Shown: positions 1,502 through 24,419, counted from the first letter of the stretch. The stretch: 25,103 nt of DNA from a virus (IMGVR_UViG_3300036761_000585:1-25103), one strand, 5' to 3'. The notes: generated by a model from the letters alone, not told the origin. Numbers and translations: made by a program.

Positions 1502-2227
1502 ATGGCCAGTAGGCGTCGCGTTGCAGCAGAGTCAGAGCGTCAGGAACTCAAGGGCGGCACCGTCGTGGGGACGGTGGAGACGGTGGCACTCGACCGAGTG
1601 AAGCCGAACCCGTGGAACCCGAACCGGATGACGCCGCGGCAATTGGAGTCGCTGAAGCACGGGCTCAAGGAGGACGGGTGGCTCACGTCGCAGAGCATCC
1701 TCGTGTGGCGCACGGACGACACGGGGACGGCGAAGTACCTCATCATCGACGGTGAGCATCGTTGGCGCGCTGCAACGGCGCTCGGGTTCGTGGAGGGGCC
1801 GATGGTGTTCCTCGACGGCGTGACGGAGGCGCAGGCGAAGGCGCTGACCATCAAGCTCGACAACAAGCGCGGGAGCTTCGACCAGGAGATTCTGCGCGGG
1901 CTCTTGCGCGAGGTGCAGGAGCAGCTTGGGGACGAACCGGCGCTGGACCTTGGGTTCGAGGACGCTGCGTACCTCGCTCTCATCGCGGCACCGGGCAGCG
2001 ACCTCGACGGCATCAGCAACCCACCGGGGCAATCCACGTTCGAGGGCGTCATCCCGACCATGACCACGCAGGTGAACATGGTTCAGATCTTCCTCACGAG
2101 CGACCAGAAGGCGCTGTGGGACGAGCGCGTGCGCACGCTCGCTGGACGCTTCGGAACGCGCAACGCGACGGACACGGTGATTGAGGCAATCCGACTTGCC
2201 GCAGAGGCGTCCACGGCAGCGGCATGA
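1502..2227 (+). CDS. ParB/Srx-fold (ParB N-terminal domain) protein
   Basis: The ATG at 1502 is chosen because GGAGG lies 8 nt upstream; in-frame starts further upstream would read through the hairpin and promoter. The 241-aa protein has a ParB-like domain at about residues 17-110: VALDRVKPNPWNPNRM is the usual first strand and loop, and DGEHRWRAA (around residues 83-91) is the ParB box that binds or hydrolyses NTP. It is followed by LDNKRGSFDQEILRGLL, seen in stand-alone phage ParB-like proteins. The C-terminal part (FLTSDQKALWDERV to VIEAIRLAA) is helical. This is not a partition ParB: no parS-binding HTH or ParA is present. Phage ParB-like proteins often lie beside DNA-modification genes, as here. 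A DNA-targeting, nicking or CTPase role is possible. Its stop overlaps the dioxygenase start (ATGA). Confidence 0.85.
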   Translation: MASRRRVAAESERQELKGGTVVGTVETVALDRVKPNPWNPNRMTPRQLESLKHGLKEDGWLTSQSILVWRTDDTGTAKYLIIDGEHRWRAATALGFVEGPMVFLDGVTEAQAKALTIKLDNKRGSFDQEILRGLLREVQEQLGDEPALDLGFEDAAYLALIAAPGSDLDGISNPPGQSTFEGVIPTMTTQVNMVQIFLTSDQKALWDERVRTLAGRFGTRNATDTVIEAIRLAAEASTAAA

Positions 2228-3114
2228 AGCCGCTCATCATCCAGCTTCGCACGCGCGTGCCGGAGGAACTGATCAAGGCGCGCGTCGGAGCGCGCGTGGT
2301 GGACGACGACATCGGCATCGAGCTACGCGGCGACTGCGACGTGTACGCAGCGTCGGGCGCGCTGGTGTGCAAGCTCCGCCGCGGGGCCATCGGCCAGGAG
2401 ACGAGTGACCGTGCGTACCCGCACCTCGCGCATCTGGCGAGTCGCTACGGCTCGGTGAACCGCGGGCTCTACTCGGGGCTCCCGCGCGTGGCGAAGATCG
2501 GCAGCAAGGTCGGGATGACGGTGAACCCGGATGGCTCGCGCGCGACAATCAAGAGTTCCATTGGGGGGTACTTCGAGCCGCAAGGCGGGCGCTTCCCGTA
2601 TTGCCGCACCACGATGTTCACATCAGCCGAGCCCGAGCGGTGGAACGAAGTGCTCCCGCTCATCCGAGAAGTCGGTGAGCACTTCGCGCGCGAGCTACCC
2701 GACCGCTGCAAGGTGCAGCGCGACTACGCGGAGAAGTGCTCGCCGTACTTCCGAATCGTCGGCACACCGTTCTCAACCATCACGGTGAACCAGAACATCG
2801 CGGGGACGATTCACCAGGACAAAGGCGACCTCAAGCAAGGGTTCGGCATCATCACGTGTCACCGCCGCGGGGCGTACACGGGAGGTCTGCTGACGTTCCC
2901 GCAGTACCGCATCGCGGTGGACCTGCGGGACCGCGACCTCATCTACTTTGACCCGCACGAGTGGCACGGCGTGACGGAGATGCAGAGCGCGGACCCGGAC
3001 TACTCGCGCGTGACGGTCGTGTACTACTTCCGAGCGGGCATGACGAAGTGCGGCACGCCCGAAGAGGAAGTGGCGAAGGCGAAGCTGCGCGCCGCAGGGG
3101 CGAGTGTCGAGTGA
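2224..3114 (+). CDS. TET/JBP-type 2-oxoglutarate/Fe(II) DNA dioxygenase
   Basis: The 296-aa protein starts at an ATG overlapping the previous stop. It has the double-stranded beta-helix signature of the TET/JBP branch of 2-oxoglutarate/Fe(II) dioxygenases: H197-x-D199 (TIHQDKGD), the distal His H248 in HEWHGV, and an Arg, R262, in SRVTVVYYF to hold the 2-oxoglutarate carboxylate. The strands between (FGIITCHRRGAYTGGLLTFP, RDRDLIYFD) follow the usual order. Known family members oxidise the methyl group of thymine (JBP) or 5-methylcytosine (TET, some phages) in DNA. The base used here cannot be read from the sequence; the thymidine-type partners downstream favour thymine. Lys- and Arg-rich residues in the N-terminal 120 residues may contact DNA. 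The last codons overlap the next gene in GTGA. Confidence 0.82.
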   Translation: MKPLIIQLRTRVPEELIKARVGARVVDDDIGIELRGDCDVYAASGALVCKLRRGAIGQETSDRAYPHLAHLASRYGSVNRGLYSGLPRVAKIGSKVGMTVNPDGSRATIKSSIGGYFEPQGGRFPYCRTTMFTSAEPERWNEVLPLIREVGEHFARELPDRCKVQRDYAEKCSPYFRIVGTPFSTITVNQNIAGTIHQDKGDLKQGFGIITCHRRGAYTGGLLTFPQYRIAVDLRDRDLIYFDPHEWHGVTEMQSADPDYSRVTVVYYFRAGMTKCGTPEEEVAKAKLRAAGASVE

Positions 3115-3989
3115 CGCTCCGCGACGACTTCTACGCGAGCGCGCGAGCGCAGATCGCATCGGGCGACATCGACCCGATGTACCCGGTGCTCCGGCGGTTC
3201 TACGAAGCGGAGCGGTGTGAGCGGGAGGTCGCGCTCTGGCGCACGCTGCTCTACGTCACGTGGTACCACGTGGGCTCCGCGTCGCTCGTGTGGCGTCGCA
3301 TCCCCGAGCCGCGCCCGCTCACTGAGGGAGACGTGCGCGGGCTCTCCACTGGCACGGAGCGGCGGGGCTTCCGCGGCAACGTGATCGCGGCCACGCACGT
3401 CAACGCGCTGCTCGCGCTCGCGCAGAAGGCCGGGGGGCTCGCGCGCTTCGTGGACGGGCTCGTGGGCGACGGAGGCGAGACGGGTTGGGCACGCACGCGT
3501 GAGGCGTTGCAGGAGGTCGCGTGGCTCGGACCTTGGGCGAGCTACAAGTGGGCGGACCTTCTCAAGCACGTGCACGGCGCGCCCATCACGGCCAACGACA
3601 TCGGCGTGGGCGGCAACAGCGAGACGGCTGGCCCCATCCCTGGGATGGTGCGGCTCACCGGAGAGAACTGGCGCGAGTGCGCCACGAACATCGGGTTGCA
3701 GAAGCGGCTGCTCGGGGAGGCGCGAGACGCGGGCGTTCCGTTCGACGGACTCGACCAGTTAGAGACGACGCTCTGCGACTTCAACAGTCTGTGCAAGGGC
3801 GGCTACTACATCGGTCACGACATCGACGCGCAGATGGACCACCTGAACGTCGCAACGGAACCGGGGCTGTGGGAGGCGCGCGCCACGTCGTTCGAGTCGC
3901 GCTACCTCGGTGAGCACCACGACTGGTTCGGCGTGCGCAAGAACCTACGGCCGGTGTACGCGAAGCATCAGAGGCTCGTCGTCCTGTGA
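3111..3989 (+). CDS. aGPT-Pplase-like amino acid:DNA transferase (DNA-glycosylase fold)
   Basis: The GTG at 3111 overlaps the previous TGA. The 292-aa protein resembles the alpha-glutamyl/putrescinyl-thymine pyrophosphorylase family, now known as amino acid:DNA transferases. These replace the pyrophosphate of 5-pyrophosphoryloxymethyl-dU in DNA with an amine and are related to helix-hairpin-helix glycosylases. Supporting segments are LWRTLLYVTWYHVGSASLVW (about 42-61), EVAWLGPWASYKWADLLKHV (135-154) and the C-terminal LETTLCDFNSLCKGGYYIGH (217-236) followed by D237 and D239, with C222 and C228 nearby. Its place between a base-oxidising dioxygenase and an FAD oxidoreductase plus kinase strongly supports the call. 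The amino acid used cannot be read from the sequence; glycine would fit the adjacent FAD enzyme. It ends in a GTGA overlap. Confidence 0.72.
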   Translation: MTLRDDFYASARAQIASGDIDPMYPVLRRFYEAERCEREVALWRTLLYVTWYHVGSASLVWRRIPEPRPLTEGDVRGLSTGTERRGFRGNVIAATHVNALLALAQKAGGLARFVDGLVGDGGETGWARTREALQEVAWLGPWASYKWADLLKHVHGAPITANDIGVGGNSETAGPIPGMVRLTGENWRECATNIGLQKRLLGEARDAGVPFDGLDQLETTLCDFNSLCKGGYYIGHDIDAQMDHLNVATEPGLWEARATSFESRYLGEHHDWFGVRKNLRPVYAKHQRLVVL

Positions 3990-4885
3990 GGGTGCATCTC
4001 GAAGGGATGGGCGTGCCTGGGTGCTTCCTCGCGTGGCACCTCGAACGCGCGGGAGTCGAGTGGACGTGGGACGACATCGACTCTCCGTTCAATGCGTGGA
4101 GCGCGTGCACGGGGGCCATCTACCCGAGCGGCGTGCCGTTCGACGTAGCCAATTACTCGCGTTGGCGCGCGTGGGTCGGGGGCTCTGCTCCGTGGCCAGC
4201 GTCGCTCACGCGCGAGTGCGTGGAGGAAGCTGGTTGGTGGTACTGCACGAAGGCGGCACCGCATGGCGGCAAGTACAAGACGGTCGCGACGGTGGGCGCG
4301 CTCAAGCGCGGTTCGGCAACGAGCCTGCACTACAACGCGCAGAAGTTCGTGCCAGCCACGCGCGAGGCGTTCGCGGAGCGGCGGCGCACATCGGCGGAGC
4401 CTGGTGCGCAGCGCGTCGTGACGCACGGCTTCGGGCGACGGAACCACCACGTGCTGTGGGGCTGGACGGTGCTCGTGAAGCTCGACATCGACCAGACGTT
4501 GCTCGCGCACGAGACGTGCGCGCGCCCGAGCCTCTACATGCGCAAGGGTCGGTTCGTGATGGCGTACGCCTACGCGGTGCCGGGGACGCCTTGGTGGTAC
4601 TCGGGCTCGTCGCTCATCGTGCAGAAGGTTCCTAAGCAACTCGAAGTGCCGGAGAAGTTCGCGCGGTGGCGCATGAACTTCGAGGCGCTGGCGGGCGGGC
4701 TCGCGCGCGTGAGCGAGGTCGGGAGCGTCATCACGGGATGGCGACCCGCGGGAGCAGACGACAGTGCACCGCTCGTGTTGCGACTCGATGACGGCGCGCT
4801 GCACGTGCGTCCGTTTTGGAACAGCGGAGTGCGGCACTCGCCGGTACTCGTGGAGGCAGTGATGGACTCATTGGGTGTCGCGTGA
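3986..4885 (+). CDS. FAD-dependent oxidoreductase, DAO-like, in the base-modification operon
   Basis: The start is the GTG at 3986, overlapping the previous stop. The N-terminus VRVHLEGMGVPGCFLAWHLE carries the Rossmann dinucleotide-binding motif G7-x-G9-x-x-G12. A strand ending in WTWDD (about residue 30) comes at the position where DAO-family proteins bind the FAD ribose, followed by SACTGAIYPSG, a typical second FAD-contact loop. The C-terminal half has long strands and aromatic clusters (YAYAVPGTPWWYSGSSLIVQ; ITGWRPAG) and a final AVMDSL helix. D-amino-acid/glycine-oxidase-like flavoproteins occur in phage thymidine hypermodification clusters, where they convert an amino-acid-substituted methyl-dU to an aminomethyl derivative. 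That is the inferred role here. The 299-aa length is somewhat shorter than cellular DAO enzymes, usually 340-380 residues. Confidence 0.7.
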   Translation: MRVHLEGMGVPGCFLAWHLERAGVEWTWDDIDSPFNAWSACTGAIYPSGVPFDVANYSRWRAWVGGSAPWPASLTRECVEEAGWWYCTKAAPHGGKYKTVATVGALKRGSATSLHYNAQKFVPATREAFAERRRTSAEPGAQRVVTHGFGRRNHHVLWGWTVLVKLDIDQTLLAHETCARPSLYMRKGRFVMAYAYAVPGTPWWYSGSSLIVQKVPKQLEVPEKFARWRMNFEALAGGLARVSEVGSVITGWRPAGADDSAPLVLRLDDGALHVRPFWNSGVRHSPVLVEAVMDSLGVA

Positions 4886-5397
4886 CGGTTCTGTTCGTGG
4901 TCGGTCCTCCGGGTGTCGGCAAGACGACGCTCGTGCGGCGCTTGCTCAACACCCCGAGCACGCTCATCGAGAGTCCTAAGTGGACGGTCGGTGAAGATGT
5001 TTGCGCGGCGGGGCACTACTCCGGCGGCACGTTCGATGGCGCGGACACGGTGCCGTACAACGGCGTGCAACTCGCGCTCGCGTATTGGGAGTCGTGTCTC
5101 ACCGACCGCTCGCTCACGATCTTCGACGGCGACCGCTTCTCTCACGCGGGCACCATCGCGTGGTTCAACGCGCGCGGTGTTGAGCCGGTGTGCCTCGCGC
5201 TCACCGCACCCGACGACGCGCTGGCAGCGCGCCGCGCTGCTCGGGGCTCGAAGCAGAACCCCTCGTGGATGAAGGGGCGCGTCACCAAGGCGGCGCGCTT
5301 CGCAGACAGCTTCCCCACTCCACGAGTGCTCCGGCTGGACGCCGGGAACTCTACGGAATCACTGGAAGTTTCCCTGCGGGAATGGCTCGCCAGATAG
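4882..5397 (+). CDS. P-loop kinase, probable 5-hydroxymethyl-dU DNA kinase-like
   Basis: The GTG at 4882 is chosen because it overlaps the previous stop and places the first strand directly before the P-loop; upstream in-frame ATGs would add a tail inside the neighbour. The 171-aa protein starts VTVLFVVGPPGVGKTTLVRR (Walker A, residues 8-16), has TIFDGDRF (79-86) as a Walker B-like strand, and an Arg-rich lid (RRAARGSKQN, 117-126). The segment GHYSGGTFDGADTVPYNGVQ (44-63) resembles the substrate loop of phage kinases that phosphorylate 5-hydroxymethyl-dU in DNA. Such kinases act before the amino acid:DNA transferase, whose candidate is two genes upstream. It is the last gene of the operon. 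A generic nucleotide or polynucleotide kinase is the alternative. Confidence 0.7.
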   Translation: MTVLFVVGPPGVGKTTLVRRLLNTPSTLIESPKWTVGEDVCAAGHYSGGTFDGADTVPYNGVQLALAYWESCLTDRSLTIFDGDRFSHAGTIAWFNARGVEPVCLALTAPDDALAARRAARGSKQNPSWMKGRVTKAARFADSFPTPRVLRLDAGNSTESLEVSLREWLAR

Positions 5398-6191: not shown

Positions 6192-6590
6192 ATGGCCAAG
6201 GTTTTTGTTTACGGGACTCTGCGAGCGGGCGGTGCGCTGCACTCGCATATGACGGGCGCTGACCTCGTGTGCTCGGCGGGAGCCGTGCGCGGGTTCGCGA
6301 TGTTCGACCTCGGGCCGTACCCCGCGGTGGAGCCCGTGCAGACGCCGCACGCGGTGGTCGTCGGGGAGGTCTACGAAGTGGACGCCGAGCACCTCGCGCA
6401 CCTCGACCGGGTGGAGGGCGTGCCGCACCTCTACCGGCGGACGCTCGTGGACGTGGTGGTGGGCGGGGGCAGCGACGGCGACGACACGGTGGAGGCGTAC
6501 ATCTACGCGATGCAGCCGGGGCACGCGCGCGGGAAGCGCGTGCGCGGCGGGGACTGGATGCGGCACGTCGAGGGGCGGGTGGCGCTGTGA
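6192..6590 (+). CDS. Gamma-glutamylcyclotransferase-fold protein (first of two)
   Basis: The ATG at 6192 has AGGA 6 nt upstream. The 132-aa protein is a standard-length GGCT/AIG2-type protein: VFVYGTLRAGG (residues 4-14) forms the signature loop that binds the substrate, and LDRVEGVPHLYRR holds the expected catalytic acid E75. GEVYEVDAEHLAHLDRVEG matches the central family strand and helix. Family members release 5-oxoproline from gamma-glutamyl amines or peptides. In this phage the substrate is unknown. A role trimming a gamma-glutamyl base adduct or host peptide is possible but not shown. Its stop overlaps the GTG of the second GGCT-like gene, so the two are coupled. Confidence 0.82.
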   Translation: MAKVFVYGTLRAGGALHSHMTGADLVCSAGAVRGFAMFDLGPYPAVEPVQTPHAVVVGEVYEVDAEHLAHLDRVEGVPHLYRRTLVDVVVGGGSDGDDTVEAYIYAMQPGHARGKRVRGGDWMRHVEGRVAL

Positions 6591-7315
6591 GCAGCAAGGG
6601 CAAGGCGGCGCGGCGACTGGTCGCGCGCGGACCCGCGCCGCTCGCGCGCTCGCTGGTGTTCAGCTTCGGCTCGAACCTCCACGAGCCGCAGCTTCGAGAG
6701 CGATGCCCCGATGCGATGCAGGTCGGTCCCGCGACGCTGCACGGGTTCCGCCTGGCGTTCGTCGGGCACTCCGCGCGATGGGGCGGGGCGGTGGCGACGG
6801 TGCGCCCGACCGCGAAGGCGGAGACGCCGGGGGAACTCGTGCTGCTCACGGACGCGGACCTCGCGCGCCTCGATGGCTTCGAGGGAGCGCCGCAGGTCTA
6901 CAAGCGGACGCGGGTGCAGGTGCAGACGTGGGCAGCGTCGGGCGCTGCGCGCGCGGTGAGCGCCTGGACGTACACGCGGGACGGCGGGGAGGCGGACCCG
7001 AGCCTCACCTACGTCTCGCGGATTGCCTGCGGGTACGGTCGGCTCGGCTACGACGACGCGCCCATCGTGCGGGCGATCCACGCAGCGAGCAGAGCGCAGA
7101 GCAGGCGGTGGGAGGCGCTGAACGCTGCGGTGGAGCCCGCGACGCCGCGAGCCTCCGTGGGCGGCTCGCGCCGCAAGCGGGAGCGCATGAGCGACTACTT
7201 CGGGGATCTGTTCCCCAACGACGACCGGCGCAGCGACCCGGACGAGCGCGACGGGGACGTGCTCGCGGACCTCTCCGATGTGCCCCCTACCTGGTATCGC
7301 GGGAGGGCGTCGTGA
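6587..7315 (+). CDS. Gamma-glutamylcyclotransferase-fold protein with C-terminal extension (second of two)
   Basis: The GTG at 6587 overlaps the upstream stop. The 242-aa protein has the GGCT signature LVFSFGSNLHEPQL (about residues 23-36), the strand HSARWGGAVATVRP (61-74), and GELVLLTDADLARLDGFEG with the probable catalytic acid E99, then QVYKRTRVQV. It is closer to the classic eukaryotic-type GGCT (FGSNL) than its neighbour (YGTLR), so the pair is not a recent duplication. After the fold, about 65 residues form a basic then acidic tail (GGSRRKRERM, then DDRRSDPDERDGDV), probably disordered. Its substrate is unknown. It ends in a GTGA overlap with the next gene. Confidence 0.8.
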   Translation: MSSKGKAARRLVARGPAPLARSLVFSFGSNLHEPQLRERCPDAMQVGPATLHGFRLAFVGHSARWGGAVATVRPTAKAETPGELVLLTDADLARLDGFEGAPQVYKRTRVQVQTWAASGAARAVSAWTYTRDGGEADPSLTYVSRIACGYGRLGYDDAPIVRAIHAASRAQSRRWEALNAAVEPATPRASVGGSRRKRERMSDYFGDLFPNDDRRSDPDERDGDVLADLSDVPPTWYRGRAS

Positions 7316-23489: not shown

Positions 23490-24419
23490 ATGCCGCTCAA
23501 GCCCGGTTCCAGCGACGACGCAGTGAGCGCGAACATCGCGGAGCTTCGGCGCGCAGGGCACCCGGAGGCGCAGGCGGTGGCCATCGCCATGCGCGAGGCA
23601 GGCAAGGGGGGCGCGGGGGGCTCCCCGCGAGCCGCTACGGGCTCGGGGCAGGCGGGGCGGGGCGTTGCCCCCTCCGGCCGCGGCAAGCTCACCAAGGGGC
23701 AGCCAGGGGGCGCAGCGGGGGGCCGGGGACCGATTGCGGAGATCCTGGCGATGCAAGACCGGCTGGTGCGGCAGGGGTGGAGCCGCAAGAGCGCCGGGGA
23801 GGCGGCGGAGTACGCGGTGACGGCGCGGAGCGGTGGGGCGGGGACGAGCGGCGCGGGGGCGATGGGCGAGCCGCTGGTGGCGTGGGCGAACGCGGCAGGA
23901 CCGGAGGTGCGCGTCCCGCAGGTGGAGCAGACGACGAACTACACGTGCGGACCCGCGGCGTTGCGCGCGGCGCTGCTCGCGCTCGGGGTGACGGCCAGCG
24001 AGGACAAGCTTGCGGCTCTGGCGCACACGACGGCGGCGGGCGGGACGCACGCGGACGGGCTCGCGGAGGCGGCGGGGGAGCACGACGTGGAGGCGGAGGT
24101 GCGGGACGGCTACACGCTGGACGAGCTTGCGCACGCGCTCGATGACGGGTGCGTGGTGCTCTGTTGCATCCAGGCGACGAGCGAGCCGGAGGACACGTCG
24201 CATTGGGTCGTGCCGGTGGCGGTGAAGGTGGACCCGGAGGCGGTGAAGCTGATGGACCCGTGGGTGGAGAACGCGCACTCGACGGTGACACTGGACGACT
24301 TCGAGGAGCGGTGGCACTGCCTGAACGAAGGGGAGGAAGTCATGGGGCTCGCGGTGGTGCTGCGCGGCGGCGCGCCTGCTCGCATCGCGCTCGCACTCCC
24401 CACGTTGGCGATGGAGTGA
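23490..24419 (+). CDS. C39-like papain-fold cysteine peptidase, 309 aa
   Basis: The ATG at 23490 begins [20 protein letters not shown], continuing [16 protein letters not shown]; this short helical module is frequent in phage proteins of head genes. A flexible Gly-rich linker follows (about 40-80). The C-terminal domain has the C39-type signature: [20 protein letters not shown] with nucleophile C153, then [29 protein letters not shown] with H238, and LMDPWVEN with D256, giving a Cys-His-Asp triad. C39-like peptidases cleave after Gly-Gly in bacteriocin exporters or act as general papain-fold proteases. Next to the coat gene it could be a head-maturation or virion protease. Its stop is embedded in the following TGATACGCT element. 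Confidence 0.78.

Follow-up and report, generated by a model that had tools for sequence, protein, structure and literature searches.

A putative self-contained thymine hypermodification cassette in a virus genome, with a TET/JBP dioxygenase in place of a dUMP hydroxymethylase

In the thymine-hypermodified phages known, 5-hydroxymethyl-deoxyuridine triphosphate is fed into replication. The virus record IMGVR_UViG_3300036761_000585:1-25103 (25.1 kb, G+C about 70%; this whole stretch of 25,103 nucleotides is called the window below) raises the question of whether thymine can instead be hypermodified entirely on finished DNA. Five intact open reading frames lie head to tail on its plus strand at positions 1502-5397, one of them encoding a TET/JBP dioxygenase. 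Our analysis suggests that these genes probably make up a self-contained route for hypermodifying thymine after replication, the likely end product being 5-aminomethyl-deoxyuridine (5-aminomethyl-dU). Thymine appears to be the likely substrate because, across related loci, TET genes and dUMP (deoxyuridine monophosphate) hydroxymethylase genes exclude and replace one another, and because no C5-cytosine methyltransferase was found in the window, its 50 kb sister contig or the complete cassette phages searched.

A reading of this DNA made from the sequence alone had proposed an operon of five overlapping genes at this place. The reading frames were found where it had put them, with 4-nt stop/start overlaps at all four junctions (ATGA once, GTGA three times):

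1502..2227, plus strand: ParB-like N-domain protein, 241 amino acids; Pfam ParB_N 2.8e-9; phrog_723 5e-22; GEHRWRAA motif
2224..3114, plus strand: TET/JBP 2-oxoglutarate- and Fe(II)-dependent dioxygenase, 296 amino acids; Pfam Tet_JBP (PF12851) 1.2e-18; H197xD199, H248, R262
3111..3989, plus strand: ADDT/AADT amino acid:DNA transferase, 292 amino acids, GTG start; Pfam ADDT (PF18724) 1e-9
3986..4885, plus strand: DAO-fold flavin adenine dinucleotide (FAD) enzyme, 299 amino acids, GTG start; GxGxxG motif as GMGVPG at residues 7-12; predicted structure
4882..5397, plus strand: P-loop kinase, 171 amino acids, GTG start; Pfam Ploopntkinase3 (PF18751) 1.7e-7

The five family assignments of the sequence-only reading held. 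The Pfam matches of the ParB-like protein, dioxygenase, transferase and kinase all lie over the curated cut-offs, and the flavoenzyme was placed by its family profile together with AlphaFold and Foldseek.

The comparative case for thymine comes from the loci that share the transferase. A scan of viral contigs yielded 79 of these, or 82 with the window and two loci from a separate scan. Among the 79, a TET gene is present in 67 and a thymidylate-synthase (TS) family gene in four, and never are both found together (Fisher p=3e-4, ignoring relatedness). When 50 records were scanned over the whole contig, the TS family (PF00303) was found in exactly four, namely the four TS loci in which no TET had been found. 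Inspected by eye, the TS proteins carry the motif RSNDxxWGxxGxN, in which Asn occupies the base-reading position as it does in E. coli thymidylate synthase, and so are of the dUMP type; in dCMP hydroxymethylase, Asp179 at this position is the key determinant for cytosine (PMC6400193). In the transferase tree, loci with TS, with D-type TET and with N-type TET (Asp or Asn, respectively, at H+5, the fifth residue after the first iron-binding His) interleave. The window transferase belongs to a supported clade (97/90) that unites L029 (TS), L006 (N-type TET) and the window, L027 and L028 (D-type TET). A pyridoxal phosphate (PLP) enzyme and a radical S-adenosylmethionine (radical-SAM) enzyme, both M6-like, are common to L027 and L028, which have TET, and to L029, which has TS, and in L105 a D-type TET is joined to an M6-type transferase. 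If TET and dUMP hydroxymethylase can indeed stand in for each other before one set of tailoring genes, both should lead to a single intermediate, 5-hydroxymethyl-deoxyuridine (5hmdU) in DNA. The comparison thus lends support to the earlier idea of a TET/JBP enzyme carrying out the initial hydroxylation on DNA.

From the gene families and this exchange we infer the following route. The TET/JBP enzyme would hydroxylate the thymine methyl group in DNA to give 5hmdU, standing in for the dUMP hydroxymethylase of the M6, ViI and PaMx11 pathways, so that an altered nucleotide pool would not be needed. The P-loop kinase would phosphorylate the hydroxyl of 5hmdU in DNA, the transferase would exchange the phosphate for an amino acid (glycine is the most likely one) to yield N-alpha-glycyl-thymidine, and the DAO-type flavoenzyme would oxidatively cleave the glycine to leave 5-aminomethyl-dU. 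The ParB-like protein might help to place or target the enzymes on DNA; this is a guess, and the weakest step of the scheme. Modified in this way, the DNA would block host restriction nucleases.

The transferase and kinase link the cassette to the M6 pathway. The transferase is homologous to M6 gp51 (2e-19), and its family profile matches PDB entries 25qc (1.5e-90) and 8z2m, named 'Glycinyltransferase' (8.5e-45). The kinase family profile reaches M6 gp54 weakly (about 1e-4, in a small search set), and the kinase itself matches the broader AAA_33 model (3e-9) slightly better than Ploopntkinase3. It has conserved GxxGxGK, FxGTD and [DE]GxR motifs, and its predicted structure (pLDDT 94.8) has a nucleoside/nucleotide-kinase type fold. 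Action on DNA is reported for the 5hmdU kinase of M6 (PMC6449724), and we propose that the window enzyme is a 5hmdU-DNA kinase. The window kinase is also matched by phrog_800, 'terminase small subunit', a name carried by the M6 gp54 record as well and likely misleading.

The flavoenzyme gave no match in Pfam, PHROGs, NCBIfam or PDB in single-sequence searches, and could be placed only through its family profile and predicted structure. The profile reaches the FAD-dependent oxidoreductase 6pxs and glycine oxidases. The AlphaFold model (pLDDT 93.5, pTM 0.90) has as its best Foldseek matches the iminodiacetate oxidase 6pxs (2e-11), D-amino acid oxidases and glycine oxidases. These structural relatives act on glycine-like amines, which would suit a DNA-bound, N-linked glycine, and the protein is proposed to be a flavin-dependent lyase or amine oxidase acting on a DNA-bound amino acid. 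In the flavoenzyme alignment, every conserved stretch was too short to be used for scanning contigs.

The first alternative to be weighed retains thymine as the substrate and changes the product: the transferase may attach a different amino acid, or the flavoenzyme may halt at an imine, an aldehyde or an N-oxidised product. Room for such an outcome is left because the sequence does not reveal the amino acid specificity and because the flavoenzymes have diverged widely, the family members being 12-43% identical to the window protein (alignment A8). Against this, the transferase clade of the window serves both the flavoenzyme and the PLP/radical-SAM branches, and Lee et al., in 2021, reportedly found that both branches start from a glycine adduct. 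The flavoenzyme and the PLP/radical-SAM pair occur together in none of the 79 loci, and seem to act as alternative ways of processing one adduct. The related solved enzyme is, as said, named a glycinyltransferase. Furthermore, GNAT acetyltransferases of two sequence groups (the L045-L066 group, e.g. L056:2156-2707, and the L036 group, L036:10695-11288) lie within the cassette in 17 loci, as would be expected if a primary amine were the product there and were acetylated in some phages; the modification of PaMx11 is 5-AcNmdU. Taken with these points, a different product is possible but not very likely. No GNAT gene lies within the window cassette, so its predicted end product is 5-aminomethyl-dU itself.

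The second alternative is a cytosine route, in which TET would oxidise 5-methylcytosine (5mC), supplied by a methyltransferase of the phage or of its host, to 5-hydroxymethylcytosine, and the kinase, transferase and flavoenzyme would build aminomethyl-cytosine. Burke et al., in 2021, reportedly described phage TETs that act on 5mC. In the window dioxygenase, the residues singled out by the sequence-only reading, H197-x-D199, H248 and R262, are present, and they do not vary among 11 aligned phage TETs. The TETs form two clades, each with 100/100 support, that differ at H+5: the D-type includes the window, HTVC112P, P12024L and Cr30, and the N-type includes the actinophages, L006 and L007. At this position the window TET (HQDKGD), which is about 20% identical to the actinophage TETs, shares Asp with the Naegleria 5mC oxygenase (HKDNLD), while human TET2 and the actinophage TETs have Asn, a point in favour of the cytosine route. 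We dropped the H+5 residue as a predictor of thymine or 5mC, since both types precede the same genes.

Several observations speak against the cytosine route. D- and N-type TETs occur with the same downstream genes, which implies that the dioxygenase has been exchanged within the cassette, and TET is exchanged with a dUMP-type hydroxymethylase before M6-like genes. In addition, the window, the 50 kb sister contig and nine complete actinophages with TET and kinase (the transferase being present in seven of the nine) yielded no match to the C5-cytosine methyltransferase family (PF00145) and none to PF00303; in control genomes each search did pick up its targets, PF00303 finding M6 gp58. Cytosine therefore seems an unlikely substrate, and methylcytosine, which the earlier reading had left as an option, is disfavoured. 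It is instead probable that the two TET/JBP clades are true thymine hydroxylases working on bulk phage DNA, comparable to those of base J, and that theirs is a modular step repeatedly swapped with dUMP hydroxymethylase.

Some points nevertheless weigh against a thymine pathway ending in 5-aminomethyl-dU. The D-type clade of the window TET includes the P12024L protein, whose gene adjoins one for a 'TET-associated glycosyltransferase', a family known from work on cytosine hypermodification. C5 methyltransferase matches above the cut-off were found in three larger transferase-bearing contigs, so that the absence rule is not absolute; absence of a gene from incomplete contigs is in any case weak evidence, and the genome of the window virus may be incomplete. 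The flavoenzyme is remote in sequence from the solved 'Flavin-dependent lyase' (PDB 8z2o/8z79), which its profile matches at E 0.016 in the N-terminal FAD-binding part only. Lastly, we found in the literature no nucleoside analysis for any phage with this cassette, this virus included.

Two phages of the D-type clade have other genes beside TET. In P12024L (L016, 4917-7182) these are the TET-associated glycosyltransferase gene and an N6/N4 methyltransferase gene, and in HTVC112P (L015, 4366-6588) a ParB-like gene and an annotated FkbM methyltransferase gene. Neither genome contains a C5 methyltransferase or TS gene, and both phages are candidates for glucosylated or methylated 5hmdU. TET/JBP proteins are also matched by phrog_6059, 'queuine tRNA-ribosyltransferase' (Phelemich gp2 is so named), a name that is likely misleading.

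It is very unlikely that the cassette is in decay, or that its enzymes work on small molecules and leave bulk phage DNA unmodified: the kinase fold does resemble nucleoside and nucleoside monophosphate kinases, but the frames are intact, catalytic residues are conserved, the five genes remain grouped in phages of great diversity, and the transferase and kinase have homologues in M6 gp51 and gp54, the M6 kinase being one reported to act on DNA (PMC6449724).

The full five-family set is present in 62 of the 82 transferase-bearing loci, a grouping far beyond chance, and a ParB gene stands beside TET in 61 of 67 TET loci. In three further contigs the transferase gene is identical to that of the window, so these come from this virus or from one very close to it. 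Among cultured actinophages, the full set occurs in Gordonia phages Wooper, CaiB and LittleMunchkin, Rhodococcus phage Tonitrus and Mycobacterium phage Phelemich; the cassettes of Microbacterium phages Kozie and MO526 are without the ParB gene. The arrangement is hence not new, and a thymine hypermodification system of five genes was already proposed for Tonitrus in 2025 (PMC11955845). What the present analysis adds is the comparative case for a thymine substrate and the modular exchange of TET and hydroxymethylase.

Some cassettes have additional features. In L031, L034, L055, L077, L080, L084, L088, L090 and L098, two proteins are inserted between the transferase and the flavoenzyme, one resembling low-molecular-weight phosphatases (LMWPc, 5.6e-10) and the other, its partner, unclassified but amidoligase-like by eye; they may provide extra tailoring. 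On a 327 kb jumbo contig (L007, 12417-17398), two TET and three ParB genes surround one transferase-flavoenzyme-GNAT-kinase cassette, and a C5-cytosine methyltransferase gene lies at a distance. The radical-SAM genes of L105 (4296-7317) and L027 (4461-6884) seem to be interrupted by inteins, as judged by eye for L105 and from a weak Intein_splicing match for L027.

In the window, the cassette is followed by a DUF6011 gene, two GGACT genes and a recombinase fragment, and then by genes for the large terminase, portal, Mu-F-like head and major head proteins; it thus lies a short way ahead of the packaging genes, a position that it also has in the actinophages. The tandem GGACT (gamma-glutamyl cyclotransferase-like) genes, at 6192-6590 and 6584-7315, were considered as tailoring enzymes and dropped, since other cassettes do not share them except for one remote match, about 3 kb downstream of the L028 transferase. 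Among the structural genes, positions 23490-24416 encode a protein with a C39-like peptidase domain and weak PHROG matches to endolysins.

The closest known systems are those of Tonitrus, the Gordonia phages and Phelemich, which have the same ParB, TET/JBP, ADDT (aGPT-Pplase2) and kinase genes and a fifth gene aligning with the window flavoenzyme, all in one operon near the left end and just upstream of the terminase. The window differs from them in its D-type TET and, from Tonitrus and Gordonia, in the reversed order of flavoenzyme and kinase, which is that of Phelemich. The thymidine hypermodification of Pseudomonas phages M6 and PaMx11 and Salmonella phage ViI (Lee et al. 2018, 2021) has a homologous transferase (M6 gp51) and kinase (M6 gp54), and the window may share the flavin-dependent lyase branch of PaMx11 (8z2o); in the M6-type pathway, however, 5hmdU is supplied by a dUMP hydroxymethylase (M6 gp58) and gets into DNA through replication, where the window cassette has TET/JBP. 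The phage cytosine hypermodification of Burke et al. is reportedly post-replicative and TET-based too, with a C5 methyltransferase supplying 5mC, an enzyme that, as noted, was found in neither the window, its sister contig nor the nine complete phages. Kinetoplastid base J (JBP1/JBP2 and a glucosyltransferase; PMC10057400) shares Fe(II)/2-oxoglutarate-dependent thymine hydroxylation in DNA followed by tailoring of 5hmdU, but there, in a eukaryote, the tailoring is glucosylation, whereas a kinase, aminoacyl transfer and flavin-dependent cleavage are proposed for the window phage.

If the proposed pathway is correct, all of its steps would take place on finished DNA, so that sequence-selective modification would become possible, and transfer of the operon could carry the pathway into other hosts. 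Once characterised, a TET/JBP enzyme specific for thymine would represent the bacterial equivalent of the base J hydroxylase, and it would be useful as a reagent for attaching amine tags to DNA at specific sites. For the phage itself, the cassette most likely serves to hide its DNA from bacterial defences.

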